A stretch of DNA of 64,000 nt. Source: Persicobacter sp. CCB-QB2. GTDB taxonomy: Bacteria; Bacteroidota; Bacteroidia; Cytophagales; Cyclobacteriaceae. A model generated the notes under the pieces. It was not told the origin of the DNA, made no database searches, and worked only from the letters and a program-made list of their open reading frames with translations. Positions 4,496 through 33,191 of this stretch are shown here, one piece after another. The translations under genes were made by a program, and so were the position numbers. Numbering within the stretch: the stretch's first letter is position 1; the number at the start of each line of letters is the position of its first letter. The DNA lies in contig NZ_LBGV01000001.1 of the NCBI RefSeq assembly GCF_001274635.1, forward strand, positions 1,674,001 through 1,738,000, given 5' to 3'.

Positions 4496-5140
4496 TCAAA
4501 CCGTTTTCTCCGCAACAATCCCTTCTAACTTGCTCAACTGCTGCTGATACTCCTTTATCCAAACATTAGTCTCTTCAATGATGAGCGCATGAGAATCCTT
4601 GTAAAACTTTTCTGTTAATTGAATGAAGGACAAGTCAGAATTCCCCTTTGGGGCGAGAGCATATTTATTGATATCATTGAGGTACTGATCTCTCAGTTGC
4701 TCCAATGCCATTTTGGTCTGGGTAAAACGAAACCAGCTGGAAGAGAAGTTATTGAGATTATCCCAAAGCTTAAAAAAACCAGCCAACACAAATGAAATAT
4801 AACCTAAGGCGATGGCATTCTCCTGAACAACTCCAGGCAACATAACCTTCACTTCCTCCATATTAACCAATAAGGGTAAGAGTACTCCATAGCAAAAAAA
4901 CTCCAACATGGCCCTTCTTATAGCAATTGCCCATGGACGATTAAAACGGATACTATTGCTGTACCAATCAATCGTCTTTTTATTAAATTCAAGGGCATTA
5001 TTGAATACCAGAACCTCCTCTTCCTGAAGTCCAGCAACCACTTCCTCTGAATCTTCGAGGCTTTTATTAAAAAAATAGTTCCAACACCACTGAATCCCCC
5101 TTGCCAACAATTTCACCAATTCCCATAAAAAACTAATCAT
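4496..5140 (-). CDS. SLATT-type two-TM membrane protein, RADAR accessory
   Basis: A 214-residue membrane protein if translation starts at the ATG at 5140; the frame stays open to 5242, but the upstream part overlaps rdrB heavily. There is an N-terminal hydrophobic segment, then two strong membrane segments (around LLPLLV and IALGYISFVLAGFF) separated by a short loop, followed by a charged C-terminal helix region. The layout, together with the FNRPWAIAIRRA segment ahead of the first helix of the pair, fits SLATT (SMODS and SLOG-associating two-TM effector) proteins. RADAR loci are known to carry optional membrane accessories of the SLATT or Csx27 type. The start overlaps the rdrB stop by 8 bp, which supports one operon. 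It probably acts at the membrane as a regulator or effector; the mechanism is inferred only from the family. Confidence 0.8.
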   Translation of the reverse strand: MISFLWELVKLLARGIQWCWNYFFNKSLEDSEEVVAGLQEEEVLVFNNALEFNKKTIDWYSNSIRFNRPWAIAIRRAMLEFFCYGVLLPLLVNMEEVKVMLPGVVQENAIALGYISFVLAGFFKLWDNLNNFSSSWFRFTQTKMALEQLRDQYLNDINKYALAPKGNSDLSFIQLTEKFYKDSHALIIEETNVWIKEYQQQLSKLEGIVAEKTV

Positions 5141-7886: not shown

Positions 7887-7887
7887 A

Positions 7888-10305: not shown

Positions 10306-13300
10306 CTATGCCACTCCAACCCCGCCTGCATTCAGGTTCACCTGCTCCAGAATCCCAATAATATGATCTGCCTGTTGATCGCCAAACACGCCATCAATAC
10401 CATCGGAATGGATATGAGAAAACGGGCTTTCATAGAGCTGACCAATGTCCATCACCCCGTTCTTCTTGAGGTATTGAACAATCATATTGATGAAGTTCAT
10501 CTGCGTGGCCGTGAGTTTTTGGTTGTTCAGGTAGTCCGCAAAAAGGCTTTGGGCTACGGACTGCTCCAAGCCGAGAATGCTTCGAATGAAGGCCCCCAGA
10601 GGTTTGTCCTTCATGGCATCTTTGAGTTCCTCCGGATTGCCACCCAGTTCCTCCGAATGAAGAATACGCTCCAATTGCTCCAGCTCTGCACTGGTGATCG
10701 GAATGTTGTGCGTCAATTTGTGAATGGCCGTTTCATGGCGGTGTTGCTTCAGGTAATGTTCTACCCGCTCTCTGTAAGTCGTCAATTGATGTGCGGTATT
10801 GATAATCCGGTCCGTATCCCGAATCTTAATATCACCGGTTTTCAGTTCATCCTTAAAAGCGGTATAAACAATCTCCTGCGTTTCCTTTTCGATGAACTTC
10901 ACGATTTCCCGTAGCGCCAATCGTACCTTTTCCAGTGCAGGCACCGTCGGTTCTTCCCAAAAAGCTTCCGATAAGACCCGCTCAATAACCGGCATTTGCT
11001 TGCTTACCGCAGGCACATTCCCTTTTTTGCGCAAGCCTTTAGCAATCAGAATCAGCTGTTGGGAATAACGATCCGTGGGCAGTTCTTCGAGCAACGCCAA
11101 TTGATAGTGCAGCATCATTTTATCAAAACGACGGCAATCAATATCCTCCTCCCCTATGCTCGGAATCAATTTGGAGACATGATCATAGAGCTCACCCAAA
11201 TCCACCTTTTTCAACTGCTCCCAAGTGCTGGCTTGTGAAAATCGTGTGACATAACGCATTTCCTGCTTCACCTGAAAACGTTGCGGATCCAATGCTGCAA
11301 TGGCCTGATGCGCCTCTGTCAAAAATTGTTCTCCCAGCGCCAGCCCCGCTGCATCCGCCTCTGGAAACTGTCGCAGGGCATAACCCAGCTCTACCTTGGC
11401 TTCAAAGATCTGTTGGGTCAAAGATTTGGCAATGCGATTCCCCTGACCCTCCCCGATATGCTCATAATATTCAAAGTTGGCCGCACAATCAATGATCAAA
11501 AAGTGATCTTTATCCTGCGAGGGTCCGAATAAGTCCGGACAAAGGCGTGTACCACGACCGATCATCTGCCAATATTTGGACACAGACTTCACCAACTTGG
11601 CAAAGACAAGATTGACCACTCTGGGGGCATCAACTCCGGTATCCATCATGTCCACCGAGATCGCAATTTGCGGAAATTTCTCCTCCTTGTCATAGCAGAA
11701 GTCTTCCAGTACACTTTCAACTTTCTCGGTTTGATTATCAATCACCTGCGCAAATTGCGGATCATATTCCGGAAAAAGCTTATCAAAACGCTCTTTCAGG
11801 AATATGGCATGCCGGTGATTTCGGGCAAAGATGATCGTCTTCCCGATCCTATCTCCCTCTTCCACCTTGATGCCTTTTTCCATCAACTGTTGCAGGATTT
11901 TGTCCTGCGTATCGTTATTGAACAGCCATTTATTCACCGCTCCACCTTCAATTTCCTCCGGTGCCTCCCCCTCTGAAGGATCTCCGAATTTCTCCTCATA
12001 CTCCTCCTTTTCCTTTTCTTTCAGGTCCTTGTATTTGATGCCGTCAAAAGGAAATTTCAGCTTGAGCTCCAACCCTTGGGGTGGGGTCAAATATCCATCC
12101 CGCACCGCTTCCTCCAATTCATAGGCGAAAGTGGGCGCATCATCTTCAATATGAAACAGGGAATAAGTATTCCGGTCAATGTCCTTTCGTGGAGTAGCCG
12201 TAAGCCCGACTAAGAGCGCATCGAAATAGTCAAAAATGGATTTATATTTCTGATAAACTGAACGGTGCGCCTCATCAATAATGATCAGGTCAAAATGCCC
12301 GATGCCATAAAATCGTTCGTCTCCATTACGGAGGCTGTCGATTTTATTCATAATCGTGGGATAGGTAGAAAACACCAGTCGGGTATTTTTATCTTCCTTC
12401 TCTTTGGTCAGGTCAATGCCCGACAAATGCTCCAAGTGTGCCTTGAAAGCTTTTTTGGCCTGAGTAACCAAAGCCTTGCGATCCGCCAGAAAAAGCACCC
12501 GCTTCGCCCAATTGCATTGGGTCATCATATCGACCAAGGCAGCGGCCGTACGGGTTTTTCCCGTTCCGGTAGCCATCACCAAGAGGGTCTCCCTGCGATT
12601 CCCTCTGATGCCTCCTTGAGGATCGTCAGTAATAAAGGATTCTGCAATACGCTGCAAAGCTTCCAGCTGATAGGGACGACCGGCAATATCCGTATTAATG
12701 GCAAAACCCCTCAAATCCTGCCGCTTGGTCCTGCGGTCCACCAGCGTTTCCAATTCGGCTTTGGTATAAAATCCATAAACCTGCCGTGCCTGATAAAAAG
12801 TATCATCCAGCATATAGGTCTCAAAGCCATTGGTATAATAAATGACAGGTCGTTGCCCGAATTGCTTTTCGAGACATTGCGCATACAGGACCGCCTGCGC
12901 ACGACCGGACGCCACTTCCTTGCCGGTGCGCTTGGCCTCGATAATGGCTAAAGGACGACCATTATCCCCCAAAGCACATAATCCACATAGCCCTTACCAC
13001 TCGGATTGGTCACCTCCGGCATGCCGGTAACTTCGTATTCAATGTCCCTACCTTCCACAAAGCTATTCCAGCCCGCTTCCTTCAAGGACTGATCAATGAA
13101 CAGCTTACGGGTATCAGCTTCCGGCACATCATGCGGCAGCACGGCAGCCTTGTCCAGCTCCGATGCATTTACCTTTCGGGTATGGGTGTATTCTTCCGCC
13201 ACAAAAGCCAAGCGTGCCGAAAGCTCCGCATTGAGCTTCTTCTGTGCTTCCAGCTCATTTTTGGCCGCAATAAGTTCATTTGTTTTCTCCTCCTCTTTTT

Positions 13301-13772
13301 TGACCAATGCCTGCAATTCGCCCTTGCTGCGTTCCTCCTCCCTGCCATCAGGAATGAGCTCATCCTGAAAAGCCACAAAATCCTTAACGTCAAAATAATA
13401 ACGACCAATAAAGCGCAATAAGCGATACAGGTATTTGACGGACTTCACCGACTCATTGCGGCTCACCTTTTTACCATGGGCGGCATTATTGCCAATATCC
13501 TTGATCAGCTTGACCTCAGTAAACAGATGAAAAGGCTGCACCAGATTCCGGAAGCTGAAATGGTGGATTAATCCGCTCAGGCTTTGCTGATTTTTGATAC
13601 TGGGCCAGTGCAGCTCCTGATCGTGTTCATACAGCCAGTGTACAGCCAGTTCCAATGCGGTGCGGGATCTTACCGCCGAAGCACTGGGCGATTTAAGGGC
13701 CAATTGTTCCGCATCTACCGCACAGCTGTAAATTTCAGGAAGGTGATCTTGCAGGTATAAAAAATTACTCAT
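10306..13772 (-). pseudogene. hsdR: Type I restriction endonuclease subunit R, frameshifted
   Basis: The motor and nuclease subunit of a type I R-M complex, split in two frames (12948-13778 and 10306-12972). The upstream part has a DUF4145-like N-terminus (RSRTALELAVHWLYEHDQ) and a coiled coil, and reaches the nuclease core as GYVDYVLWG; the downstream frame resumes as DNGRPLAIIEAKRTG. Adding one G to the run at 12966-12970 (C on plus) restores a protein of about 1155 residues with an intact D...ExK site, a helicase Walker A (ATGTGKT), a DEAH box (IIIDEAH) and an EcoEI-like C-terminal region. The ATG at 13772 (MSNFLY) is preferred over the TTG at 13778. A terminator lies between hsdS and hsdR, so hsdR probably has its own promoter. 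The frame loss lies exactly in the nuclease motif. Confidence 0.88.
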
Positions 13773-13906
13773 AGTCAAAAAATACTCAATCCGTATTGCT
13801 CATTTAATCAATAAGCTAATTATCGAATTTTAACATAAAAACCAATATCAATATTTATTTTTGACAGGCTTAATTAGCTATATTTCAACCCCTATCCCCT
13901 CAAAAG

Positions 13907-16845: not shown

Positions 16846-18207
16846 TCAAATACACCTAAGTAAGAATAAAGCCGCTATGCCATAAAGCAAGCTTAATAAA
16901 ATTGAGGGAAGGATGAGTAATCGCAATGTCTTTTTCCTTTTTTTATCTAACTTCGACTTGATAGTACTGGAAAAGTAATGCTCCTCTTCAATTCTTTTTT
17001 TCAAGAGTTTCGACTGATTACATACACCGTACCAACTACCGGTGAGTTGAAGAATCAACGAGCCGATAAAATACCATGGCAATAGTTTGGCGATCAAATC
17101 TAATTTAACGCTACTTTCTGAAGTGTCGATCAACTTAACCCAATTTACCCCTAGTAAAAATAGGGAAGCTAAAAAATCACGTGTAGTTCCTCTAATGAAT
17201 GAATTAATATTGGCTAGAATTTGGTCATAATAATTACTAACCTCAGTTAAAACCGTACGATACTCCTTATCAAATTCCTCTATTCTTTGGGCAATCACGG
17301 CAAAATATGCATCCTGTGCTCTAACAAGTGCTTCGGCCCCTTGTTCAGCAACTAAGAAAACATAATCCTTATTTGCGTATTTATCATCAAACTGCCTAGC
17401 AAAAATTCGAAGCCTTAAGTCATGGTCATTTCGTTCATATACCCACGAAACGATCGTTAATAGTTTGTTTATATAATCTCGATCATTAATTCTTAGGCCT
17501 GCACCATTATACAACGGAATTTCAATTCTTTTATTCCCTTTAATCAGCACCTCATCCCCAATTCTGGAAGAAAAAATTTCATGCGTCAGTGTAGCTAACA
17601 ATGACAAACACAAAAGCTTGTTAAGCTGCTTGTGAATAGGTTTAGCTACCCCAGTAAGGGTGGTATCTATATAAAACACGTTTGGATTAATAAGTGCCTG
17701 ACAATGAAACTTAATCTGCTGTTGAATCTCGATATAACTTGGTATTGGCTGATTATTATCAATAGCTTCGAAGTCTGAATCAAAATCAATGAGAGGAACT
17801 ATATTTATATTTTTTGCCTTGATTTCTTCATCCAAGTCACCAATAGCAAAAAAAACTTGATGACCACTGAATGGAAGGCTAAGATCCAAAGGGTTAATAG
17901 TCTTTAGGTATGCCACAAAATCATTAATGGAAAAAAAGAAATATTTATCATTCGATACTTTTTCTTTATTTAAATTAACTTTCAGCGAATCAATGTCATG
18001 TTCAAATTCATCTGTAATAGGCTCGTTATTCAGTATATCGATAAACCTAAAACCAAAACCCCCTAAATCCCCATGAGATTCATAAAAAGTCCTTAAAGAA
18101 GAAATAGAACCAATATCATTCGTGGTGGCGGTAAAATATGATAATTGATCGTCAACATCGAACTGTCCTCTTGATAAAATTTCAAGAAAATCAATTAAAA
18201 TTCTCAT
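16846..18207 (-). CDS. Membrane protein with three C-terminal TM segments, unknown
   Basis: A 453-residue protein that I do not recognise. The first 320 residues look soluble; a long helical, possibly coiled region (about 290-340) leads to three hydrophobic segments, around residues 345-360 (FLASLFLLGVNWV), 375-395 (PWYFIGSLILQLTG) and 430-450 (LLILPSILLSLLYGIAALF), with a strongly basic stretch (KSKLDKKRKKT) before the last. Its start overlaps the upstream 388-residue gene by 17 bp, so the two are a translationally coupled pair. The pair sits immediately upstream of the type I R-M genes in the same direction, and its DNA is more A+T-rich than hsdM. A sensor-plus-membrane-effector arrangement is a reasonable guess from context only. 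Confidence 0.75.
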   Translation of the reverse strand: MRILIDFLEILSRGQFDVDDQLSYFTATTNDIGSISSLRTFYESHGDLGGFGFRFIDILNNEPITDEFEHDIDSLKVNLNKEKVSNDKYFFFSINDFVAYLKTINPLDLSLPFSGHQVFFAIGDLDEEIKAKNINIVPLIDFDSDFEAIDNNQPIPSYIEIQQQIKFHCQALINPNVFYIDTTLTGVAKPIHKQLNKLLCLSLLATLTHEIFSSRIGDEVLIKGNKRIEIPLYNGAGLRINDRDYINKLLTIVSWVYERNDHDLRLRIFARQFDDKYANKDYVFLVAEQGAEALVRAQDAYFAVIAQRIEEFDKEYRTVLTEVSNYYDQILANINSFIRGTTRDFLASLFLLGVNWVKLIDTSESSVKLDLIAKLLPWYFIGSLILQLTGSWYGVCNQSKLLKKRIEEEHYFSSTIKSKLDKKRKKTLRLLILPSILLSLLYGIAALFLLRCI

Positions 18208-19357
18208 TCCCCAAATCTGTAGTTGGTACTTGTATTATCAATTTAGATTTCCCGTTACCCTCATCACTACGTTCTATCTTAATCTCATCTGAGTTCCAAT
18301 TAATCGCTAACCAAGGCGTTTTAAATTTTTTATCTAACCTATAAACACTCATCCTATCCACTTCAAACTCTTGACCTAGAACAGCCTGATCCCTTAGGGC
18401 TTGTTTGAAACACCCACTAACTACACCTCGATTTTCCTCGGATACTTCATCACATACCGCTTCTATAAAAGAATCTTCTTGGAAATGGCTATTTGCCAAT
18501 AAACAAATCCTAGCTTTTCTATTAAAATCTATTTTTTTTACATCTTCATCTAACTCCTCAGCCCTCTTAATCGTCCTAACAGCTGACCTTACCCCAGTTA
18601 AAACTTTCTTGGTTAAAGTCCTACCATATTCTGCATCTAGGGCAACATTAAGAAAATTGGAAAAATAGGCAGGGATATAAATACTACTTCTATCCTTTGC
18701 GATTACCCCCCAATTAAATTCTCTCCTTGTACTTATAATAGCCACTTTTTGAATATGTTTTTGACTTTCAGTAATACTAGTTGTGTTATTTTTTAACTTA
18801 ACTTCTTTATCTCCATCCACCTCAATCACTTCATAAGATATGGCTGTGCTACTATCAATTTTTAATAAAAATACCAGATTAACAGACTCAATAGAATCGT
18901 CAAGTTTATATTCAACGTTTGCTTTAGAAAGGATCAACACTCCATCATTGACATTCCCCTGAGCATTATTATGGCTCTTGCAAAAATCTTCAGTCAAACT
19001 AACGGATAAATCAGCTAATGCATCAGTATCAGAAACATCCTGCTCTGAGAAATTTTGAATCACTTCAGGAATCGCTCCTTTGAATTGATAGTACCCCCCT
19101 TTTTTAAGCACTTCCCAAAATATTTTTTCAAAAAATTCTTTATTAGATTCAATCAATCTAACCTTCTTGAAAGAATTTATCACAAATTTGTCGGCTGATG
19201 TGCTGAAATTGTTCTTTTTGAGTTCGTGAAAAATAAACCAATTAATACTGATTTTTTGAACTCTGTCATAAGAAAAGGTCAATGAATTTTGAATTTCCGA
19301 TTCAACCATATTAATAGCTTTGTTGTTAAAAAAATATTTTTGCAAAAAATCCTCCAT
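18191..19357 (-). CDS. Possible NdpA/YejK-like nucleoid-associated protein
   Basis: A 388-residue soluble protein. The C-terminal half shows features reminiscent of the 37-kDa nucleoid-associated (NdpA/YejK) family: a strand ending in PAYFSNFLNVALDAEYG, a helical stretch rich in Arg/Lys, FEVDRMSVYRLDKKF and a final W.INWNSDEIKIE strand followed by a basic turn. The similarity is by eye and remote. It is the first gene of a two-gene unit with the 3-TM protein (17-bp overlap) and diverges from the GIY-YIG gene across 166 bp, which must contain promoters for both directions. NdpA-like proteins bind DNA and occur in some defence neighbourhoods; an anti-phage role here is inference. Alternative: an unrelated conserved hypothetical protein. 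Confidence 0.6.
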   Translation of the reverse strand: MEDFLQKYFFNNKAINMVESEIQNSLTFSYDRVQKISINWFIFHELKKNNFSTSADKFVINSFKKVRLIESNKEFFEKIFWEVLKKGGYYQFKGAIPEVIQNFSEQDVSDTDALADLSVSLTEDFCKSHNNAQGNVNDGVLILSKANVEYKLDDSIESVNLVFLLKIDSSTAISYEVIEVDGDKEVKLKNNTTSITESQKHIQKVAIISTRREFNWGVIAKDRSSIYIPAYFSNFLNVALDAEYGRTLTKKVLTGVRSAVRTIKRAEELDEDVKKIDFNRKARICLLANSHFQEDSFIEAVCDEVSEENRGVVSGCFKQALRDQAVLGQEFEVDRMSVYRLDKKFKTPWLAINWNSDEIKIERSDEGNGKSKLIIQVPTTDLGNENFN

Positions 19358-19523: not shown

Positions 19524-20387
19524 ATGAGAGGAAAGACCATTCAGGTATTTTTAACCGACGGAACACCGAGAGGCATCAAAATAGCCGATATTACCAGTAA
19601 TATTGAACAGGCGGTATTCATTCCCCGAAACAAGATGAAGGAAGCCCAGGAGCGGAAGGAAGTTTACCGCCCTGGACTGTACTTTCTTTTAGGTGAAAAT
19701 GAATCCTCCTCCAAGCCTTTGGTTTACATCGGCCAGTCCAGAAATGTAATGGAGCGCATCAAAACTCATGACCAGAAAAAGGATTTTTGGAATTATGCGG
19801 TAATGATCGTCTCCAAAACCGAAAGTTTTACGCAAACACATATTGAATACCTGGAACAATTGGCTATTCAAAAAGCGGCTGGCATTGGGAGATTCAAGTT
19901 AGAAAACAGTGCAAACCCAAAGGCCTTTAGCATTCCCGAAACCCTTGAAGCGGATCTGCTGGATAATTTTGACACGATTAAAATCCTGCTTTCCACCTTA
20001 GGTTTTACCGTTTTCGAATCGCTAAAGAAGGAGCCATTGACAAAAGGATCAGATAATAAGGAAATATTTTTCTGTAAGGGAAAAATAGCAGATGCTAAAG
20101 GCGAATATCAGGAGGATGGATTTGTAGTTTATAAGCACTCACTGGCCGCAAAGGAATTAAAGCCCTCTGCCGGAGATCCACTACGAAATCAGAGGTCAAA
20201 ATTAATTGCAGATAAGATCCTGATCGAAAAAGGGGATAGTTACGAATTTCAGGAAGACTTTCTTTTCAACTCCCCATCTGCAGCAGCCTCTCAGGTGCTA
20301 GGCAGAAGCGCTAACGGTTGGAGAAATTGGAGGGATCACCATAATTTAACGCTGGACCAAGTGAAACGAAAAGATGATGCATCATGA
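19524..20387 (+). CDS. GIY-YIG nuclease-family protein with DUF4357 domain
   Basis: A 287-residue protein with a GIY-YIG-like domain in the N-terminal half: GLYFLLG (the GIY strand), VYIGQSRNVMERIKTH (the YIG strand with the downstream Arg) and a later acidic helix (IEYLEQLAI) that can supply the metal-binding Glu. The C-terminus is a DUF4357-like module ending in LGRSANGWRNWRD. Such proteins are common as stand-alone genes in bacteria and near mobile or defence loci; their substrate is unknown. The ATG at 19524 is preceded by a divergent intergenic region. The stop overlaps the next start by 4 bp (ATGA), so it is coupled to the small membrane protein. Confidence 0.85.
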   Translation: MRGKTIQVFLTDGTPRGIKIADITSNIEQAVFIPRNKMKEAQERKEVYRPGLYFLLGENESSSKPLVYIGQSRNVMERIKTHDQKKDFWNYAVMIVSKTESFTQTHIEYLEQLAIQKAAGIGRFKLENSANPKAFSIPETLEADLLDNFDTIKILLSTLGFTVFESLKKEPLTKGSDNKEIFFCKGKIADAKGEYQEDGFVVYKHSLAAKELKPSAGDPLRNQRSKLIADKILIEKGDSYEFQEDFLFNSPSAAASQVLGRSANGWRNWRDHHNLTLDQVKRKDDAS

Positions 20388-20680
20388 ATAAAGCAACCAA
20401 AATAAAGGGGTACCTGAAATTGATCACTCCTTTTACCATCCTCGGGACGATATCAATATTACACCTCATTCATAGGTATGTGGTAGGATCAACAATGGGT
20501 GAATGGTACAGACATTTCACCCATTTTCTAACAGCATTTACAATTCTTCTCTTAGTAGCTGAATTCATCTTACAAGCAGCTACCAGGGGAAACCAAAAAA
20601 TCATTTGGTTACTGGAATTAGCTGGAATTTTAGGTTTTTTAGTGTTGGTTATAAAAGTTTTTAATATCACCAGTATTTAA
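20384..20680 (+). CDS. Small membrane protein, unknown
   Basis: A 98-residue protein with three hydrophobic segments, roughly residues 10-27, 44-64 and 74-94, and short charged loops. It overlaps the GIY-YIG gene by 4 bp and so is co-translated with it. No family recognised. A membrane-anchoring or toxin-like role for the pair is possible but there is no direct evidence. It ends convergently with the cyclodipeptide synthase gene. Confidence 0.7.
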   Translation: MNKATKIKGYLKLITPFTILGTISILHLIHRYVVGSTMGEWYRHFTHFLTAFTILLLVAEFILQAATRGNQKIIWLLELAGILGFLVLVIKVFNITSI

Positions 20681-20721
20681 TAATCGGCAAAAGGGCTATA
20701 CTGAGTAAACCACAAAAATGC

Positions 20722-21405
20722 CTACTTATTAAAATTGATTCTGGCAAAAACGATATTCTCAATTCCCTGTGGGGCATCATATTTTTGGCTGGACAATGCC
20801 AAAACAGTTTTGAAGGGTTTTGCGGGATAAGCCTTAAGGTATTTTCCACTGCGGCCCATAATCGTCCAAACACTTAGTTCCTCTAATAAATAATTGACAC
20901 ACCTCCTCTCCAGCTCTTCTCTGGTTAATAAATGGTTCAATTTATCCAGATGAGCATCTGTAAATCGGGCAAGGTCAAGGTGAGCAAGCTCCTGAAAAGA
21001 AGAATTATTTTCATATAGATTGTAATAGCCTTCCAAAACTTCCGGAAAATCGGGATGTAGTCTCCAATGATCCCAACGGGTAACTTTGTAAGGAATTGAA
21101 AGTTTTTCAATATATCGCAAATTATCAAACAACCACTGATCACCCCAACTCAATGCTTCCGAGTAAGCCGCGCTTTCCTCCCGATTCTCCATCATTAAGT
21201 TATGCCGCTGGCTGGTATCAGCAATATTAATCAAACAGTAATCAAAATTTCGATTGGCATAAGCTATGGTAGCTTCCAAATAATCCCCTCTTTGCTGCTG
21301 ATTCCCTATGCTGATCCCAATATGAAGATTCCTGATGTTTTTCCCCTCTAAATAATGGCCGGCAACGTATGCCTTTTTTACTTTTGATGATTTGGTGATT
21401 TCCAT
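20722..21405 (-). CDS. tRNA-dependent cyclodipeptide synthase
   Basis: A 227-residue protein of the cyclodipeptide synthase (CDPS) family, which uses two aminoacyl-tRNAs to make a cyclic dipeptide. The catalytic Ser is S32 in GISIGN, nearly identical to the AlbC motif GISAGN; Y172 and E176 in NYLLEE match AlbC Y178/E182 with almost the same spacing (140 against 141 residues from the Ser); Y193 followed by P194 corresponds to the Y202 position. N35 resembles the NYQ subfamily whereas Tyr-Pro resembles the XYP subfamily, so the type is mixed. The length is typical. No cytochrome P450, oxidase or methyltransferase tailoring gene lies beside it, so the product would be the bare diketopiperazine or is modified elsewhere. 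Substrate amino acids cannot be predicted by eye. Confidence 0.88.
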   Translation of the reverse strand: MEITKSSKVKKAYVAGHYLEGKNIRNLHIGISIGNQQQRGDYLEATIAYANRNFDYCLINIADTSQRHNLMMENREESAAYSEALSWGDQWLFDNLRYIEKLSIPYKVTRWDHWRLHPDFPEVLEGYYNLYENNSSFQELAHLDLARFTDAHLDKLNHLLTREELERRCVNYLLEELSVWTIMGRSGKYLKAYPAKPFKTVLALSSQKYDAPQGIENIVFARINFNK

Positions 21406-21603
21406 ACCGAGTGCTTATATGAAATAAATAGTGGGGTAATCATTCCCTCATATAATAATATAAAATATGCTATAACACTCAAAATCAACTTATAGCTAAA
21501 CCTTAAAGAAGCTAAGTACCATTAACCCTACAAACGCCTAAAAAAATGAAAAGAAAACATTGTTAGTCTGCCGAAATTTGGGATAGCGGCCTGTGGAAAA
21601 CAC

Positions 21604-22344
21604 CTAATGGTGCGTAAATTTTTGACCATCCCACTTAAAGACCGACCCATGCTGCGGCTCATTGTCTAATTGAAGTTCGTCCCTACTTTTAAAACTAATG
21701 GTATTATCTTCCGAATCCACTGCAGCCGCTAGTCTTAATACACCTGTAAGTTGTTGGTTTTGTTGTGAATAAATATAAGTGACATAAACCCTATTTTGCA
21801 CAAGAAGGGCTGCTGCTTCTTCACTTTTACCCAGAAAGTGAGCTACCGGATTAATATTCAGATCACGATTGCCGAAATTATCGAAAACGACCTCTTCGGA
21901 AGTCACTTCTAAGCCCGAATACCTTAAAAGCTTTATGGATTGCTCTATTCCCAATGTTGCGTCTTCAGCAATACGGATACTCAAAACGGAATTGCTATCA
22001 AGTAAGTAATAATTTTCTTCATAGCTTCCCGCTCCTCCTGGAAGCGCTTTTACTTTTAAAAAATGGGATGTGGTGTCATATTCAACCGAATACATCGCTT
22101 CTTCTAAAAACGCCTCATAATGATCATAATCGTCCTGTACGATTGAATATTCGGCACCTAAGCTATTATAAAGCCATTTATTCCAAGTTGGACTATAATC
22201 AACCGAATATTCGCTGATGCTATTTACCATGCTAATCAATTGAGGAAAATTTTCTTTTGGACCTCCCTCTTTTACTTTCCTCCCTTCACATGAGGCAAGC
22301 AAGAAAATGATCACCACAATGCTTAATTTAAGCTGATATCTCAT
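21604..22344 (-). CDS. Lipoprotein, unknown
   Basis: A 246-residue protein with a signal peptide and lipobox LLASC (Cys at about residue 19), then an acidic exported domain. The region after the Cys (EGRKVKEGGP) is a flexible linker. No family recognised. It is the last gene of a minus-strand series of exported proteins following the LysM/lysozyme/M15 gene, so an immunity or envelope role is possible. It could equally be an independent lipoprotein, since 179 bp and a possible terminator separate it from the previous gene. Confidence 0.7.
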   Translation of the reverse strand: MRYQLKLSIVVIIFLLASCEGRKVKEGGPKENFPQLISMVNSISEYSVDYSPTWNKWLYNSLGAEYSIVQDDYDHYEAFLEEAMYSVEYDTTSHFLKVKALPGGAGSYEENYYLLDSNSVLSIRIAEDATLGIEQSIKLLRYSGLEVTSEEVVFDNFGNRDLNINPVAHFLGKSEEAAALLVQNRVYVTYIYSQQNQQLTGVLRLAAAVDSEDNTISFKSRDELQLDNEPQHGSVFKWDGQKFTHH

Positions 22345-23891: not shown

Positions 23892-24542
23892 CTAAGTTCT
23901 CGGAAGATCTAAATCAACATCCTGAAATCCATTAAAATCTTTTAAAGCTATTTGATGAACAGCCACCCTTGTCAGGCCAGAAAATAATTTCCCGTTCTCA
24001 GTATCTTCAGATGAATCAACCTGCAAAACATAAACATTAATGTTATGAGGTCTATTATTTGCAGAGAATAAGCCAGGGGATTTCCCATAACCTGCCCAAA
24101 TCTCAATCGGTTTAAATATGTCCAAAAAAGTAAGTACTATTTCCCCGGCACCGGAACCCTCAACCCCCTCGACCCAAGCTGAATTATGATCAGCCTGAAG
24201 TTGTAAGGGACTATACTTACAGGACCAATTAACAAAATCCCTTCTTTGAGCCTCGAGCTCTTCGATTATATCAGGGTCGTCTAGTTCATAGGCTTTTACA
24301 ATTTCATCCTGGGTTGGATTTTTAGGTGCAATTCCACCAGGCTTCAGATAACTAGTACACCAATTACTCGAGCTTCCATCAAAAGAATAATAGAGGCTAA
24401 TGTCTATATTTTCGAATTCAGATACCTTTTTCAATTCTGAATTACCACAACATTCACATGGTAAAATTTCAACCTCTTGGGCAAATGTACTAAGAGAGAA
24501 AAAATAGCAAATGCTAAAAAATATAACGAGTTTACTTACCAT
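23892..24542 (-). CDS. Secreted protein with NADase-type glycan-binding-like domain
   Basis: Start chosen at the ATG at 24542 because it gives a clean signal peptide (MVSKLVIFFSICYFFSLSTF then AQ); the frame is open to 24575. The mature protein begins with a CECC cysteine cluster and contains, about residues 125-190, SAWVEGVEGSGAGEIVLTF and IEIWAGYGKSPGLFSANNRP. This matches the jellyroll module annotated as an NADase-type glycan-binding domain (discoidin-like). It therefore probably binds carbohydrate outside the cell or in the periplasm. The start lies 6 bp after the stop of the 24548-25105 gene, so the two are coupled. Confidence 0.7.
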   Translation of the reverse strand: MVSKLVIFFSICYFFSLSTFAQEVEILPCECCGNSELKKVSEFENIDISLYYSFDGSSSNWCTSYLKPGGIAPKNPTQDEIVKAYELDDPDIIEELEAQRRDFVNWSCKYSPLQLQADHNSAWVEGVEGSGAGEIVLTFLDIFKPIEIWAGYGKSPGLFSANNRPHNINVYVLQVDSSEDTENGKLFSGLTRVAVHQIALKDFNGFQDVDLDLPRT

Positions 24543-24547
24543 AATAA

Positions 24548-25105
24548 TCAAAGAATGAACTGCTCTCCATTCCATTTAACTTCAATACTTATACGAGGAT
24601 CGTGCTCCACAAAAGCTATTATTTTTGTTCCAAATTGCGGTAATTTTAGCCTTAAACAAAAATCGTTATCTCCAAGAAGCTCTTCTAAAACCTCATTGAC
24701 CTTATCATATGGAAATACATCTTGTCTTCTCCAGGTTCTATTTGATTTATCATAAGTAAAAAAACCATTAACTGGGCTGCAATTAGAGCCTTGCGTGCAC
24801 AATTGCTCAATCGCTATAATATCAATTCCTTTTTTTCTATTTTTAAACAGAACACATTTACCACTGGCCAAATATTCGATATAGCCATTCTTAAGGTCAC
24901 ATTTGGTGATTAATTCCTCCCTTGATTTATAGGTTTCAACTATTTCGCCATCACAAAAAATATGCTCCTTATTGAGCAACATAAAATATGATTCTACATC
25001 ATCTGGATTCACTATTTCTTTTTGCCATTTTTCTTGCGCTTTCGCATCATAAGAAATACAAAAAAATAATGAAAGCATTAAAGTTATCACATCATTTCTT
25101 TTCAT
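24548..25105 (-). CDS. Secreted protein, unknown
   Basis: A 185-residue exported protein if the ATG at 25105 is used, which places the signal peptide (MKRNDVITLMLSLFFCISYD) at the N-terminus; an ATG 12 bp further upstream is also possible. The mature part has several Cys residues and many Asp/Glu/Lys residues, without recognisable domains. It is immediately followed by the glycan-binding-domain gene on the same strand. The position downstream of the cell-wall-hydrolase-like gene suggests periplasmic protection or a secreted accessory role, by context only. Confidence 0.6.
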   Translation of the reverse strand: MKRNDVITLMLSLFFCISYDAKAQEKWQKEIVNPDDVESYFMLLNKEHIFCDGEIVETYKSREELITKCDLKNGYIEYLASGKCVLFKNRKKGIDIIAIEQLCTQGSNCSPVNGFFTYDKSNRTWRRQDVFPYDKVNEVLEELLGDNDFCLRLKLPQFGTKIIAFVEHDPRISIEVKWNGEQFIL

Positions 25106-25578: not shown

Positions 25579-26136
25579 CTAGTCCCCTTCATTCACTGAA
25601 AGGACTGTATCGCTGCATTCTCTCCCATTAAATTTAGCAAAATAAAGCATTTCATCACCAGACCACAAGGAAATTTTGGCATCATCAAATTGAAACTTAA
25701 ATCCAGTTTCTTTGCTAAGCTCTATAACATCGGCTTTTAAAGAATCACTATAAATTGGAACAAATTCTTTTGACCAATAGGATTCAAGATTGGAAGCTCC
25801 TCGAATAAAAAATTTCCCTTCTACAAACACTTTAATTGGCCTACTAAAATTATAAATGAAAATCTTTACTTCCCGATGATTCTCATAGACAGCTTGGTGA
25901 TTATAAGGAGAAACGTCACTCATAGGATTGTAGTGACAATAATTAACATGATCCTTTCCTGTAATATCAAAAATTGAATCTGAAGAAATTAAATCTATAT
26001 TTTCATTTATCTTCCAAGTTGAATCTTCAAATTGCATAAACATTTTTGCTTTCGAAAAATCCGATCCGGAAGAACAACCACTTAACAGGAAAAGAAGAAT
26101 AGCTACTTTTAAAAATCTCATAAACATCTTCCTCAT
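25579..26136 (-). CDS. Lipoprotein next to the LysM/lysozyme/M15 gene
   Basis: A 185-residue protein with a signal peptide and lipobox LLSGC followed by Ser-Ser-Gly-Ser. The start ATG overlaps the stop of the 1170-residue gene by one base (TAATG), the tightest coupling in this region. The mature domain is small, beta-rich in appearance and unrecognised. Tight coupling of a periplasm-facing lipoprotein to a peptidoglycan-degrading enzyme is the arrangement expected of an immunity protein, but no immunity family was recognised. Confidence 0.7.
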   Translation of the reverse strand: MRKMFMRFLKVAILLFLLSGCSSGSDFSKAKMFMQFEDSTWKINENIDLISSDSIFDITGKDHVNYCHYNPMSDVSPYNHQAVYENHREVKIFIYNFSRPIKVFVEGKFFIRGASNLESYWSKEFVPIYSDSLKADVIELSKETGFKFQFDDAKISLWSGDEMLYFAKFNGRECSDTVLSVNEGD

Positions 26137-29100
26137 TAGTCTTTCTCAAATTTAAACTCTTGATTTTTACTTTTATCAAAACGAATACTTGAAGACTCAT
26201 CTTTTTCAGGTGCTTCCCCTTTCAAGCTAAAGTCAACATAGGTGTTTTTTGTTTTCATACGCTCTCCTACATACTCCCAATGATGTTTTTCATTTGGCTT
26301 TGAAACAGTAATTGCAAAACCAAAATCGGGTGCATTTTTACGTAGCCACTTATCTATTTTTTTGGTCTTGGCACTCATCCCCTCCGAAGGTAGTTTGTTA
26401 GTTTTATAACCTAAAGACCTAAAATAATCAGCATTACCCAAATCAAAAGCCACTCCTGATTGGTGGTTTGACCTTCCTGCCGGTGCTGCGCCATTAATTC
26501 CAGAATCTCCTCCCTTTTGCCTTACGTTCATTTCCTGTTGTTGTGAAAAAGTCCTGAAACCACTTGAAAAACCTAATATTTCAGGATTTGCTCTCTGAAG
26601 GTCAGAAACCACTTCAAAAACACTATCTTTTTGAGCCTTATCCACCATATTCAAAAACGCCTCTCCTGCACTATTCAGCAGTATTTGGCCAGTATTATGG
26701 ATGGTCTCAACGATATCAGCATGTCCTTGAAATTCTCCCTTCCTCCATTGCGCAGTAGGTGCGTAAATATCAGTCCAATTATTGATGAAATTGGAAACAG
26801 CCGTCCAACCCTTTAGAGAAGTGTCTTCAGAATAAGTGCCCTTTTCCTGGTCATAAATACATTTTACTACATTTGCGTACTCATTTCCCCCACTATCCTT
26901 TTCAGTATTAAGCACCTTCACAAAATCACCCATTGTAAAGTTTGTATTCGTTTTTTTAAAACTAACCACTCCATTCTTATCCTCTCTAATCCTAAGAATG
27001 GGCTTTTTATCAATTATCGTCTTATGGTTTGCTTCTGTCGAAAAAGAATCTTGGGCTTTGGTAACCCCAAAAAATTCATCATTTAATTGGTTTCCAAAAT
27101 TAGCATTTGAAATATTTACCCAATGACTTGTCCCACTAACCTTTCCATAAACTTTTCTAGACCTAAAACTTTTATCTCCCTTTGATAATTGAGTTGCAGT
27201 AGGCTTTTGATGAATAGTTCTGATTTCGGAAATAGAAATTTCACTCCCCTTTGTTAACTTCAACTGCACTCCATCTTTATCTTTGGCTGGTTTTAGATCG
27301 GCAGTTCTTAACCACACGTCCGATCCTTTAACTATAATCAATTTGCCTGATACTGTATCAAAATTCTTCTCCTTTAACGATCTTAAATAATCCGAGTCAG
27401 TATTTCGTATTGGTACTATTAATTCATCTTGATTTTCAAAAATGGAAATCTCTGAATCATTAATCCCCAAATAAGTATTGATAGCCCTTACTTTTGCTTG
27501 TTCTTCTTTTGAATCCCAACCACTCGCTAACTCAATCTTAAATCTGTTTAAAATTGATTTGGAAAAAATACTATAATCTGTAACCCCATCCAAAATAGCC
27601 ATCACCAGATCATCCCTATCCTGAGATTTCTGCTGATCTATAATTTCAAAAATCACATTTTCATGATCCTTTCCATACTTTCTTAACTCCTTTCCAAGTT
27701 TGGAAAAATCCTTATCTAAAAAATTCAGCGCATGGAAACGGGAATTGGTATCATCCAAAAGCTGGTCTGCAGTTTTGGGAACAAATTCCTTTACAGGTGA
27801 CTCATTTTTATTTTGAGGTGTCCAAAGATTTGGCTTCCACATAAAATCAGTCTCGTCTTTTTCCGGAAGTACCACAGGCCCCGGCACAAAATCAGGAGCA
27901 GCCTTTGCCGCCTCATCTGCCGCTAACTGGTCCTGATAAGCTTTTTCCCTCGCTCGTTTTTCCCGTTCCGCCTTCACCTGCGGATATTGCTCAATCCGCT
28001 GCTTCACATATTCCGCGGTGCAAGCGGTGCCATTCAATTCAGCAAGCGTCTTGCTGGAAGCGCCGCCGATATTTCCATCCGAACTAGACCAATGCAATAC
28101 TTGCTGCTGAAATTTATAGATCGCGGCAATGGTTGCTTTCAAATCTTTCTGATCCACTGCGGTCTCAACGGCCTCAGCCTTGGCTTTTTCATCCGCATAA
28201 GCGGTTGGGGAAAGCAATCCTAATGCATGAAGACGTGCCTGAATCAATAGTACATCCGCTTTATTATTGGCCGCGCTTCCGCTTCCCACTCCGGCCGAGA
28301 TGGTTGGAGTGGCCGCCTTTTTAGCAGCGCTTTCAGTGCCGGCTTTTTCTTCTGTCTTATCTTTGGAAGTCTCCAGGCCTTTCACCCGACCTTCCAAAAA
28401 GGCAACCCGCTGATCAAAACGGTCATCCGATACTTTTAACCAACGACTGCGATTTTTCATTTCTTTGGTAAATCCTTCCAGATCGTTTTTCACCACATGC
28501 GGCTGTAAAAACTCCCGTGTATCTCTTTCATAATCCCCTCGGTAAGTCAAATCAAAAAGCATCTCTTTGATCATCGGATTAAGCTTTTCCCAATCCGTTG
28601 CTCCATATTTGGCGGTCACATCCGCCTTAGTCGCCATCCGCTTAGCATCAGATTTCTTCTCTGCAAAAGCTAGTTGAAATAAGGCATTCTGTTGCGGATG
28701 ACTAATGATGGGTAACTTAGCGGCATTTCCTTCCAGCCAGTTTTTTGCGCCAAGCCCTCGCAATCCAATGGCGGATTTCCATGGACTAATCGCGATTCCG
28801 GCCTGTTTGAATTCATTCTCTATCAAAGTACTCGTTCCTCTATGCCCAAGATCATAACCCCTCCCGATGGTCACCCCGGATTTTTTTCCCGGCCAATGCG
28901 CCTTTCTACTAAAATAGAGACTGTCAGGATTATCATCCCCCTCTACCAAATTGGTGAAATCGCCTACAGACTGATCTCCGATGAGCATTTTCATGTCCTC
29001 CGCTTTTTCCTCTTTCTTGCTTTTCGCCTGCGGCTCCTTCACTACCTCTGACAATTTCGGCGCTTCCTGCTCTCCCTGAACTTTAGAAGTAGTTTTGGGA

Positions 29101-29648
29101 ATCTCAATGGTCGCCCCGGCATTAAAGCCTTCAATATTGCCCCACTGTTGTAAAGCATCGGCATTTTCAGCCTTGAGGGCCGAAACGGACACCCCAAATT
29201 TGGCCGCAATCACTTCTAAACGGTCGCCAGCCTGTACTTCATAAGCATTCGGAGTCTGCTTTTCCTGTACCAATTCCTGAGCCACAGCCACTAAGTCCTC
29301 CCGCCGCTCTTCCACAGGAGTAATGGGCGTATGCGGCAATTCCGGAACTTCAATCCCCTTCGCTTTCAACACCTGCGCCCTGCTTTCCGGACTCCCCATA
29401 TAAAAATCTTTAATCTCTTCCAATGGGTAGCGCTGATAATAGGCTGCATCTCGCTCGGCCAAAGGCACTTCAGCCCCGGCCTTATTGGGCTTCCCGCTTT
29501 TATGTGCAGCTAACTCAGCCCGCAAATCCTGCAGCATCGCTTCTTCCGATTGCTGCATTTCCTGATAATCCTGAAAGGATTGCCTTTGAGGCTCCTGATT
29601 TTGACGGACTTGAGGACTATTATGAAGGACGTCTTGCTTGGTACTCAT
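26136..29648 (-). CDS. LysM, lysozyme-like and M15 peptidase multidomain protein
   Basis: An 1170-residue protein without signal peptide. In order: a Gln/Glu-rich N-terminus; a LysM module at about 139-190 (YEVQAGDRLEVIAAKFGVS); a pesticin/T4-lysozyme-like region at about 225-430 (VTIGRGYDLGHRG and a following helical domain with LTYRGDYERDTREFLQPHV); a peptidoglycan-binding-like stretch at about 440-550; an Ala/Glu/Lys-rich linker; SH3-like segments at about 740-930; and a C-terminal M15 D,D-carboxypeptidase-like domain at about 1015-1150 with SSGFRTFSQQQE, NHQSGVAFDLG and HHWEYVG holding the zinc and catalytic residues. It could cleave both glycan and peptide bonds of peptidoglycan. Lack of a signal peptide and the coupled lipoprotein suggest export by a contractile system (type VI or eCIS) as an effector. 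A phage-derived lysis protein is the alternative. Confidence 0.82.
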   Translation of the reverse strand: MSTKQDVLHNSPQVRQNQEPQRQSFQDYQEMQQSEEAMLQDLRAELAAHKSGKPNKAGAEVPLAERDAAYYQRYPLEEIKDFYMGSPESRAQVLKAKGIEVPELPHTPITPVEERREDLVAVAQELVQEKQTPNAYEVQAGDRLEVIAAKFGVSVSALKAENADALQQWGNIEGFNAGATIEIPKTTSKVQGEQEAPKLSEVVKEPQAKSKKEEKAEDMKMLIGDQSVGDFTNLVEGDDNPDSLYFSRKAHWPGKKSGVTIGRGYDLGHRGTSTLIENEFKQAGIAISPWKSAIGLRGLGAKNWLEGNAAKLPIISHPQQNALFQLAFAEKKSDAKRMATKADVTAKYGATDWEKLNPMIKEMLFDLTYRGDYERDTREFLQPHVVKNDLEGFTKEMKNRSRWLKVSDDRFDQRVAFLEGRVKGLETSKDKTEEKAGTESAAKKAATPTISAGVGSGSAANNKADVLLIQARLHALGLLSPTAYADEKAKAEAVETAVDQKDLKATIAAIYKFQQQVLHWSSSDGNIGGASSKTLAELNGTACTAEYVKQRIEQYPQVKAEREKRAREKAYQDQLAADEAAKAAPDFVPGPVVLPEKDETDFMWKPNLWTPQNKNESPVKEFVPKTADQLLDDTNSRFHALNFLDKDFSKLGKELRKYGKDHENVIFEIIDQQKSQDRDDLVMAILDGVTDYSIFSKSILNRFKIELASGWDSKEEQAKVRAINTYLGINDSEISIFENQDELIVPIRNTDSDYLRSLKEKNFDTVSGKLIIVKGSDVWLRTADLKPAKDKDGVQLKLTKGSEISISEIRTIHQKPTATQLSKGDKSFRSRKVYGKVSGTSHWVNISNANFGNQLNDEFFGVTKAQDSFSTEANHKTIIDKKPILRIREDKNGVVSFKKTNTNFTMGDFVKVLNTEKDSGGNEYANVVKCIYDQEKGTYSEDTSLKGWTAVSNFINNWTDIYAPTAQWRKGEFQGHADIVETIHNTGQILLNSAGEAFLNMVDKAQKDSVFEVVSDLQRANPEILGFSSGFRTFSQQQEMNVRQKGGDSGINGAAPAGRSNHQSGVAFDLGNADYFRSLGYKTNKLPSEGMSAKTKKIDKWLRKNAPDFGFAITVSKPNEKHHWEYVGERMKTKNTYVDFSLKGEAPEKDESSSIRFDKSKNQEFKFEKD

Positions 29649-30514: not shown

Positions 30515-30540
30515 ACATATAAAAGTGTATATCAAAAATA

Positions 30541-30763
30541 TTAACCCGGATTATTCATGCTTCAATCCTCGATTAGCCGCTAGGCGGGAAAAATGAAGGA
30601 ATTTTTCCTATTTCGAGTTTTTTCCAACGAAACAGATGAATGAGGAGAAAGCAAGCCTACCCAAATTTGAGCTTTTGATAATTCGACAAAACTAATCGTA
30701 AAATCCTAAAAAATAGCTACTTACAGTAAATCACTAAATCTAGCGGTGAATAATTCGGGTTAA
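30541..30763 (+). repeat. MITE-like repeat family A, copy 1
   Basis: A 223-bp non-coding element with near-perfect 17-bp terminal inverted repeats: TTAACCCGGATTATTCA at the left, and TGAATAATTCGGGTTAA at the right. The interior includes the family-conserved stretches AATGAAGGAATTTTTCC, CGAGTTTTTTCCAACGAAAC and GAGGAGAAAGCAAGC. Its right end overlaps the 3' end of the LRR gene. Confidence 0.8.
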
Positions 30764-31640
30764 ATTTTACAACAACATAAAAAGTTTGACCTCGTCTACC
30801 ACTCCCTATTGAATGCCCTTTCCAGCGAGGAATAATCTCCCCGATATCATCGGCATTAAATCCCTCAAATGGGTTTTGGGAGGCATAAAGATTTTGCAAG
30901 GCAGGAAGGCTAAATACTTCTTTTGGAATGGTCTTTAGGTGATTTTCATTAAGCGAAATTTCTTCCAGCTGCGTCATTTGAAGTAAATACTCTGGAAACT
31001 CCCTAAATTGATTCTGATCCAGAATGATTTGATTCAAGCTACTTAACTCCAACACCTCCTGTGGCAGGGAATTCAGCTGATTACCACTTAAATTCAAAGC
31101 CTTTAGCTCCTTCAGCTTTCCAATTCCCGGGGACAACATCTTCAATTCAAAAGCATGAATTTCTAAATGCTCCAGTTCTTCGATCTCAAATAATTCCATA
31201 GGAATCATTCGCAGGGGTTTATTCCATGAAAAACGTTTCCTTTCCTGCTGAGCCTGTAAATCCCTAACGGCAGCCAGACACTCCCGATACCCTTTCCAAC
31301 GGTTATGCTCCCAGAAAAAGTCCACCGCGGATTGATAATCCATCGGATTATCAGCCAAATCGAAACACTCTAAATATGGCATTTCAATTAACAATTCCGG
31401 GCTAACATCCGTGATCCGGTTATTATACAAATACAAATGTCGCAGATTTTCCAGTTTGCGGATACGCTCCGGTATCCCACGGATTTTATTGTTCATCACC
31501 TTCAATACCTCTAGGGAGGTAATTTCAAAAACCTCCTGAGGAATATCCTCCAGCCCCAAATTGGACAGATCAAGCTCGGTCCAATTTTCTTTTCTGGCCT
31601 TTTCTATATGAGCATATATTTTGGGGTGAAGTTCTTGCAT
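30717..31640 (-). CDS. Leucine-rich-repeat protein
   Basis: A 307-residue cytoplasmic-looking protein (no signal peptide) with two blocks of leucine-rich repeats: residues about 20-115 (LEVLKVMNNKIRGIPERI, LRHLYLYNNRITDVSPELL) and about 150-270 (LKALNLSGNQLNSLPQEVL, LEEISLNENHLKTIPKEVF), separated by a helical insert rich in Arg/Trp. LRRs usually bind proteins; no catalytic domain is attached. The last 15 residues (FNPNYSPLDLVIYCK) and the stop are encoded inside repeat A copy 1, so the original C-terminus was probably replaced by insertion of the element. Start ATG at 31640. Confidence 0.85.
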   Translation of the reverse strand: MQELHPKIYAHIEKARKENWTELDLSNLGLEDIPQEVFEITSLEVLKVMNNKIRGIPERIRKLENLRHLYLYNNRITDVSPELLIEMPYLECFDLADNPMDYQSAVDFFWEHNRWKGYRECLAAVRDLQAQQERKRFSWNKPLRMIPMELFEIEELEHLEIHAFELKMLSPGIGKLKELKALNLSGNQLNSLPQEVLELSSLNQIILDQNQFREFPEYLLQMTQLEEISLNENHLKTIPKEVFSLPALQNLYASQNPFEGFNADDIGEIIPRWKGHSIGSGRRGQTFYVVVKFNPNYSPLDLVIYCK

Positions 31641-32625: not shown

Positions 32626-32679
32626 GGTATTCATTTAAATATTTTGAGTATATATATAATATTTCGTTTATTGTATTTA

Positions 32680-32889
32680 TTAACCAGATTATTAATGCTT
32701 AAATCCACGTTTAGCTGTAAAGCGGAAAAAATGATGGAATTTTACCTATTTCGAGTTTTTCCCAACGAAACAGATGAATGAGGAGAAAGCAAGCTTGCCC
32801 AAATTTGGGCTATGATAAATCAAAGAAATTAGATTATAAAGATCTAAAAATTAACTTATTACGATTAGTTAGTGAATAATTCGGGTTAA
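32680..32889 (+). repeat. MITE-like repeat family A, copy 2
   Basis: A 210-bp copy with left end TTAACCAGATTATTAATGC and right end TGAATAATTCGGGTTAA. The interior is closely similar to copy 1, including CCTATTTCGAGTTTTTCCC and GATGAATGAGGAGAAAGC. It ends 36 bp before the start of the interrupted lipoprotein gene and may carry or displace its promoter. Confidence 0.8.
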
Positions 32890-33191
32890 ATAATTTGGTA
32901 ATCTCTTTAACTGTCACATTTAATTATGAAAAACCTTACTCTTCTCTGCCTATGCCTCTTATTTATGAGTAACTGTACCCACCGCATGGTCCGTACAGGT
33001 TATGAACCTACCTCCACTGCCTATAACCAGTGTAATGTTGAGGTCAGAAAGTGGATGACCCCCACGGATTCCCTTCAAAAAATTGGACAGCTAAAATTAG
33101 GCGAATCCGGCTTTGCTGTTTCCTGTAATGAACAAAGAGCCCTTGACATTTTAAGGAACGAAGCTTGTTCCATTAATGCGAATATTATCAA

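Follow-up and report, generated by a model that had tools for sequence, protein, structure and literature searches.

A divergent XYP-type cyclodipeptide synthase gene next to a defence island in Persicobacter sp. CCB-QB2

Family membership, fold and catalytic residues

A 64,000-nucleotide stretch of the Persicobacter sp. CCB-QB2 genome (contig NZ_LBGV01000001.1; hereafter the window, to which coordinates refer unless another locus is named) holds, beside a group of defence genes, a gene that the original prediction took for a stand-alone cyclodipeptide synthase (CDPS) with features of two subfamilies. The locus raises the question of what this protein is: an ordinary synthase, a relative that no longer makes cyclodipeptides, an intermediate between subfamilies, or a component of the adjoining island. 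The gene lies at 20722..21405 (-), starts with ATG and encodes 227 residues and a stop in an intact frame; its GC content is 0.396 (window, 0.410), and the four promoter-like sites found in 20300-21800 are at chance level (mean of 5.0 in shuffled sequences).

The protein matched the NCBIfam model TIGR04539 (tRNA-dependent cyclodipeptide synthase) at 48.2 bits (E-value 9.6e-13), above the curated cut-off of 45, whereas the Pfam model PF16715 gave 16.8 bits, under its gathering cut-off of 27; profile searches thus placed it in the family by one model and not by the other. Because PF16715 also left two clear XYP enzymes below its cut-off (25.1 and 21.2 bits) and was silent in seven of the 15 genomes that had yielded XYP loci, we read this shortfall as a limit of the model. 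A phmmer search of the PDB returned nine rows, the first seven of them CDPSs: 5ocd (5.3e-21), three Nocardia brasiliensis entries (~1e-16), then 6y4b, 9j61 and 5mlp. An AlphaFold2 model built on 22 aligned sequences (mean pLDDT 88.1, pTM 0.84) and its fold matches point to a Rossmann-type fold like that of class Ic tRNA synthetases, with 5ocd as the best Foldseek match (E-value 7.8e-16, TM 0.85). In the VIA comparison Z fell from 25.5 (5ocd) through 25.0 (Nbra-CDPS), 24.2 (9j61) and 21.4 (5mlp) to 19.3 for Porphyromonas gingivalis 9gun and 18.5 for 6y4b, with NYH-type entries at 15.2–17.8, Parcubacteria entries at 14.1–15.0 and the best tyrosyl-tRNA synthetase at 13.3; the subfamily labels in this ranking are drawn in part from papers. 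Family membership is carried by the TIGR04539 match and the fold together with the catalytic residues and the phylogeny described below, and the proposed CDPS at this position is borne out, the TIGR04539, phmmer and fold matches exceeding what chance would give.

A genome scan for relatives of the protein found 49, belonging by their titles to Pseudomonadota and Actinomycetota; with a sponge-symbiont plasmid protein and the window protein added, and a truncated relative (L051) removed, these formed an alignment of 50 rows. The highest identities to the window protein were 37% in a partial sequence (L039) and 35% in L004, the best full-length relative standing at 34–35%. The catalytic residues of AlbC (Snou-CDPS), S37, Y178, E182 and Y202 (PMC7566563), correspond to the nucleophile S32 (21310..21312 (-)), to Y172 (20890..20892 (-)), to the catalytic base E176 (20878..20880 (-)) and to Y193, which with P194 (20824..20829 (-)) makes up the Y202-P203 pair of XYP enzymes. 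All four are present in 50 of 50 rows and the proline in 49. They are separated by 140, 4 and 17 residues in the window protein and by 141, 4 and 20 in AlbC, and in both an asparagine, N35 (21301..21303 (-)) in the window protein, follows the serine by three positions (AlbC numbering as read off the alignment), so that the predicted residues and their near-identical spacing were verified. AlbC, an NYH enzyme, thus has the catalytic tetrad, N40 and the overall fold (VIA Z 15.2–16.5) in common with the window protein, but carries His203 in place of the proline and was not among the phmmer PDB rows at E ≤ 10. The blocks D..QRH, GD.W, RWD and YLLEE are also kept. Where the basic strands of XYP enzymes read K-phi-X-F (beta-2) and L(R/K)FKK (beta-7) (PMC7566563), the window protein has KKAYV, near the first motif, and a C-terminal strand, ARINFNK, with fewer basic residues than the second.

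One of the genomes scanned (G498) contained two such loci. In the first, an alphaproteobacterial CDPS (L049, 6433-8310 of its locus), the frame continues for ~390 residues past the CDPS part, perhaps as a fusion; the second (L057) encodes a CDPS-like protein with SVPS, Tyr-Pro and a Phe at the Y172 position. The latter, with serine at X40, was left out of later sets, and its inclusion would make the Y172 count 50 of 51.

Substrate pockets and proposed activity

The best explanation, to which we assign a probability of about 0.78, is a stand-alone XYP-type CDPS working by the ordinary two-aminoacyl-tRNA mechanism, and by analogy with its relatives the protein probably, with the same odds, makes a cyclodipeptide. 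The steps below are modelled on characterised relatives, whose mechanism and residue roles are described in PMC7566563 and PMC13062777, and they build on the frame, family membership, catalytic residues, predicted fold and XYP placement found here. A first aminoacyl-tRNA would be bound and its amino acid passed to S32, the side chain resting in the P1 pocket; a second aminoacyl group, sitting in the second cleft, would be coupled with E176 as base; and the dipeptide would be cyclised with the help of Y193 and released as a 2,5-diketopiperazine. A Pfam scan of 28 neighbour proteins matched no known CDPS tailoring enzyme, as the original prediction had said of the adjacent genes, and for this reason the product would probably leave the enzyme as it is or be changed by enzymes encoded far from the gene; in the cell it is most likely a small metabolite whose production is an accessory trait. 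Against this explanation stand the PF16715 score, the full-length identities of at most 34–35%, the weak beta-7 motif, an alanine (A151) in place of an arginine, and the chance level of promoter-like sites. Inactivity is also possible, and the odds are lowered accordingly: by our own count of table rows in PMC5816076, seven of the 11 XYP enzymes assayed in E. coli gave a product.

For the pockets we used, in AlbC numbering, positions 33, 35, 65, 67, 119, 185, 186 and 200 for P1 and 152, 155, 156, 159, 204, 206 and 207 for the second cleft as the probable pocket positions. The fourth P1 residue is given as AlbC 119 in PMC5816076; when the AlbC letters are counted in our alignment the fourth residue fits 67 and the fifth 119, and we adopted the mapping we infer from this count because with it two other enzymes fit Table 2 of that source: 9j61 reads FGLGCIFM/FDYKGFS, close to two cLI/cLL rows, and L059 reads NTYRKLT, just as the Gly/Glu row does in its second pocket. 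The window protein then reads HGNAWVWK in P1 and DRFAAPF in the second cleft, neither of which equals a motif printed in that table (PMC5816076). At the putative P1 positions N60 (21226..21228 (-); AlbC 65) and K191 (20833..20835 (-); AlbC 200) asparagine and lysine each occur in one of the 50 rows, and at A151 there is an arginine in 48 of 50; as each of the three is unusual among these relatives, the pockets, which are the oddest feature of the protein, do not allow its product to be predicted.

Among the closest known enzymes, Fdum-CDPS of Fluoribacter dumoffii (5ocd, XYP), the best match by sequence, Foldseek and VIA alike, has the catalytic residues and fold in common with the window protein but is ~26% identical to it and carries Q where the window protein has N at X40, and the Legionella rows related to it have LPLDWVME in P1, unlike the window pocket. 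The next-best structural match, Nbra-CDPS of Nocardia brasiliensis (5mlq/9i5m/9iam, XYP), which makes cyclo(Ala-Glu), likewise agrees in fold and catalytic residues and differs in having A rather than N at X40 and Leu32 rather than Gly30 in P1. Leu32 (AlbC 35) limits P1 in Nbra-CDPS, and the L32A and L32G variants admit Leu (PMC13062777); judging from the sequence, the window protein with its G30 would have a P1 unlike the small pocket for Ala in Nbra-CDPS, perhaps roomier and more polar, and N60 together with K191 suggests a polar side chain. A similar P1, IPNAWVYR, occurs in the CDPS of a genome from the same order (L071, genome G533), which is 23% identical, has different neighbours and has N at X40, N at AlbC 65 and a basic residue (here R) at AlbC 200 in common with the window protein. 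At long odds, these two might form a Bacteroidota XYP branch whose Asn and Lys/Arg in P1 take a polar or acidic first residue, possibly Asp; if so, the branch would yield a cyclodipeptide not yet known from the CDPS family. Asp is among the amino acids that the 2018 survey found used by no CDPS, its NYH enzymes lacking H, D and K and its XYP enzymes R, D and K (PMC5816076).

The same residues bear on a second reading, in which the protein is a CDPS that has decayed or been put to another use, for instance as a tRNA-binding protein, retaining the fold without making a cyclodipeptide. Such a loss of function would fit the long branch of the protein in the 55-row tree, N60, K191 and A151, the weakly basic beta-7 motif (INFNK at the C-terminus) and the lack of a tailoring gene among the neighbours scanned; it is hard to square with four retained catalytic residues, with the D..QRH, GD.W, RWD and YLLEE blocks and with an intact reading frame, and we consider it unlikely, if deserving of some weight.

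Subfamily and the asparagine at position 40

The XYP assignment in the preferred reading depends on how the subfamilies are told apart. Originally, N35 was said to fit an 'NYQ' type and Tyr-Pro (193-194) the XYP type, giving a mixed signature. The separating pair is N40-H203 in NYH enzymes versus X40-P203 in XYP enzymes, X being any residue (PMC13062777), and SYQ, once proposed as a third type, has been merged into XYP (PMC5816076); 'NYQ' is not a subfamily, the correct name being NYH. With P194 at position 203 and N35 at position 40 the window protein falls within the definition of XYP and outside that of NYH, which calls for N40 together with H203. Since X is any residue, Asn with Pro is a legal XYP combination rather than a mixed one.

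Phylogenies agreed with this. As NYH references we used five loci found by PF16715 in the genomes of the relatives. In a 55-row tree, built after removal of the partial L039, the NYH/XYP split received 100/100 support and the window protein came out on the side of XYP, its branch being long and without close kin; in a 37-row tree, from which 25 near-duplicate rows had been removed, the split received 99/94 and the protein was again on the XYP side. There L071 was its weak sister (87/69), and L072, L080, 9j61 and 9gun lay at the base of XYP in no resolved order, all on long branches; the exact place of the window protein inside XYP, on its own long branch, is unsure. The proposed Tyr-Pro fit to XYP therefore stands, with P194 confirmed and both trees in agreement, and the phylogenetic check put forward with it grouped the protein with XYP enzymes against the NYH outgroup, while the mixed signature fails on the definition and on both placements.

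Asparagine at this position is uncommon among the 50 rows (Q in 35, A in 8, K in 5, N in one and a gap in one) but has precedents. The CDPS of Streptomyces sapporonensis (9j61) combines SLEN with Tyr-Pro, as the window protein combines N35 with Tyr-Pro, although the two are 17–18% identical and the 9j61 pockets are unlike those of the window protein; 9j61 may be the bicyclomycin enzyme. Alignment searches in Bacteroidota yielded three more, SLSN in L071, SLLN in L072 (genome G536) and SINN in L080 (genome G893), all with Tyr-Pro. The P. gingivalis CDPS 9gun has H at X40, which speaks against N as a Bacteroidota-wide trait. Mapped on the 37-row tree, N versus not-N takes three changes, with or without the NYH rows, and N40 could be an old state retained in several deep branches or have arisen repeatedly, the data fitting both. 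At any rate N at position 40 alone is no marker of the NYH subfamily.

A third lineage, truly intermediate between the NYH and XYP enzymes, would account for N35 standing with Y193-P194, for the five XYP-type rows that carry N on long, poorly resolved branches, and for the place of three of these (L072, L080 and 9j61) at the XYP base. We find it highly improbable, given the support for the XYP side in both trees, the definition of X, and a VIA ranking in which XYP-type structures stand above NYH-type ones with the exception of the Parcubacteria entries, which stand below; the four Bacteroidota rows with N were not recovered as a single clade, although a single clade was not rejected (p-AU 0.125). 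A mixed or third subfamily was accordingly rejected on the definition, the two trees and the structure ranking. The window protein is a real, divergent XYP-type CDPS, and its family, its mechanism and its Asn-Tyr-Pro combination all have precedent.

Genomic surroundings and distribution

To its left the gene adjoins a defence island, as originally noted. The nearest defence-type gene (19524..20387 (+)) encodes a DUF4357 protein whose GIY-YIG match falls slightly short of the Pfam cut-off, is a PADLOC candidate (PDC-S14) and faces the CDPS gene; between the two, overlapping the DUF4357 gene by 4 nt and ending 41 nt from the CDPS stop, is a 98-residue ORF (20384..20680 (+)), hydrophobic by eye and matching no significant family. 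Farther left are McrBC-like genes (694-3991), a RADAR pair (rdrB 5133-7886, rdrA 7888-10254) and a type I RM system of hsdR in two pieces, hsdS and hsdM. Within the RADAR region (4496-10254) a neighbour protein weakly matches SLATT_2, below the cut-off of that model, and hsdR (10306-13778) is split over two frames (12948-13778 and 10306-12972) as if a frameshift, either real or a sequencing error, had divided it. The RM system and the PDC-S14 gene are separated by two overlapping genes (453 and 388 residues; 16846-19357), for which Pfam, NCBIfam and PADLOC gave nothing significant; the 453-residue protein ends, by eye, in probable membrane helices, and the pair is possibly an uncharacterised two-gene system.

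That the CDPS is an effector of this island, draining charged tRNAs or making an anti-phage or alarm diketopiperazine, is a reading to which we give next to no weight: it has the adjoining PDC-S14, type I RM, RADAR and McrBC-like genes in its favour, whereas PADLOC assigned the CDPS to no family at E ≤ 0.01, the gene faces its PDC-S14 neighbour rather than sharing its strand, relatives were absent from phage records and, by a pattern-limited scan, from viral contigs (none among 65 pattern matches), and a literature search returned no paper pairing 'cyclodipeptide synthase' with 'defense island'. Around three other Bacteroidota XYP CDPSs (L071, L072 and L080) PADLOC gave one weak match (PDC-S41, 19.4 bits) among 10 adjacent proteins, and none of five neighbour proteins scanned at L071 had a defence match; with one weak match in 10, a defence neighbourhood is not a demonstrated shared property. 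The island itself is thus real and adjoining, and a functional link to it drew no support from PADLOC, from the neighbours of other loci or from the literature. What would have been surprising, a hybrid enzyme with a tie to a defence island, is not borne out.

On the right are same-strand genes, mostly of unknown function, the nearest 198 nt away. The gene at 23892-24575 codes for a protein carrying PF25302, the NAD glycohydrolase translocation domain (E-value 1.3e-8); nearby are a LysM/VanY protein (26136-29648) and other proteins that look secreted. One DNA search, which scored no more than 15 candidates in each genome, compared the stretch from 20.4 to 40.3 kb with 18 related genomes, two of the same genus; every match was either to a repeat or short, the longest covering 768 bases at 63%, which fits accessory DNA. 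This region holds a MITE-like dispersed repeat of ~230 bases, its ends inverted as judged by eye (TTAACCCG...CGGGTTAA), in copies at 30535-30772 and 32661-32899, with 16 further places of more than 200 bases in the same genome (76–89% identity) and more partial copies in the window, and a BCCT-type transporter gene (36996-38581) that is interrupted by a stop and also changes frame.

CDPSs had been called sparse in Bacteroidota, and in the genomes sampled this holds. A protein search found no counterpart in 97 other genomes of the same genus, family and order (1 of 98 with its own), which also favours an accessory trait. Counting its own genome each time, the hits were 1 of 395 in a phylum draw, by TIGR04539 and by alignment A4 alike; 4 of 390 in the order by an alignment search, one being the NYH enzyme L073; and 3 of 325 in the class by alignment A5, one a weak fragment. 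G1081, also returned by the class search (8.7e-4, 18.8 bits, a 59-residue open frame), was treated as chance. Kin of the other loci (the family of G533, 1 of 18; the family of G536, 1 of 13; the order of G893, 1 of 5) returned in each case the genome already known. TIGR04539 and our own alignments served as probes because PF16715 was silent in the Persicobacter genome itself and in 14 controls; since TIGR04539 also matched 0 of the 14, neither model showing sensitivity in the controls, these negatives depend on the probes. The earlier scan that gave the 49 relatives used two peptide patterns unfit for the Bacteroidota enzymes found later, so that its lack of Bacteroidota titles is no evidence of absence. 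Plasmids yielded only four records, all of one sponge-symbiont plasmid whose protein is 29% identical to the window protein, and a plasmid search with the L072 and L080 proteins yielded none.

Single Bacteroidota CDPSs have been mentioned before (PMC4159871), as have ones in Kordia (PMC7477175) and Parabacteroides (PMC5767969). In the 2018 survey, Pseudomonadota and Actinomycetota supplied ~82% of the XYP enzymes (PMC5816076). The window locus, with the three XYP-type and one NYH-type Bacteroidota loci, supplies test cases for a pocket type not predicted so far. L072 (7366-10933) and L080 (6781-10125), from distant Bacteroidota, have the same gene order: a ~400-residue protein whose helix-turn-helix match is weak and stays below cut-off, the XYP-type CDPS, and a 491-residue sodium:solute symporter family protein matched above cut-off; all three frames overlap in L080, and the set looks like a conserved CDPS-transporter operon. 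The NYH-type CDPS L073 (8291-9154; genome G819, same order), with SLGN and PYH, adjoins an ORF (6724-8220) that by eye is FAD-linked oxidase-like and another that is hybrid sensor kinase-like.
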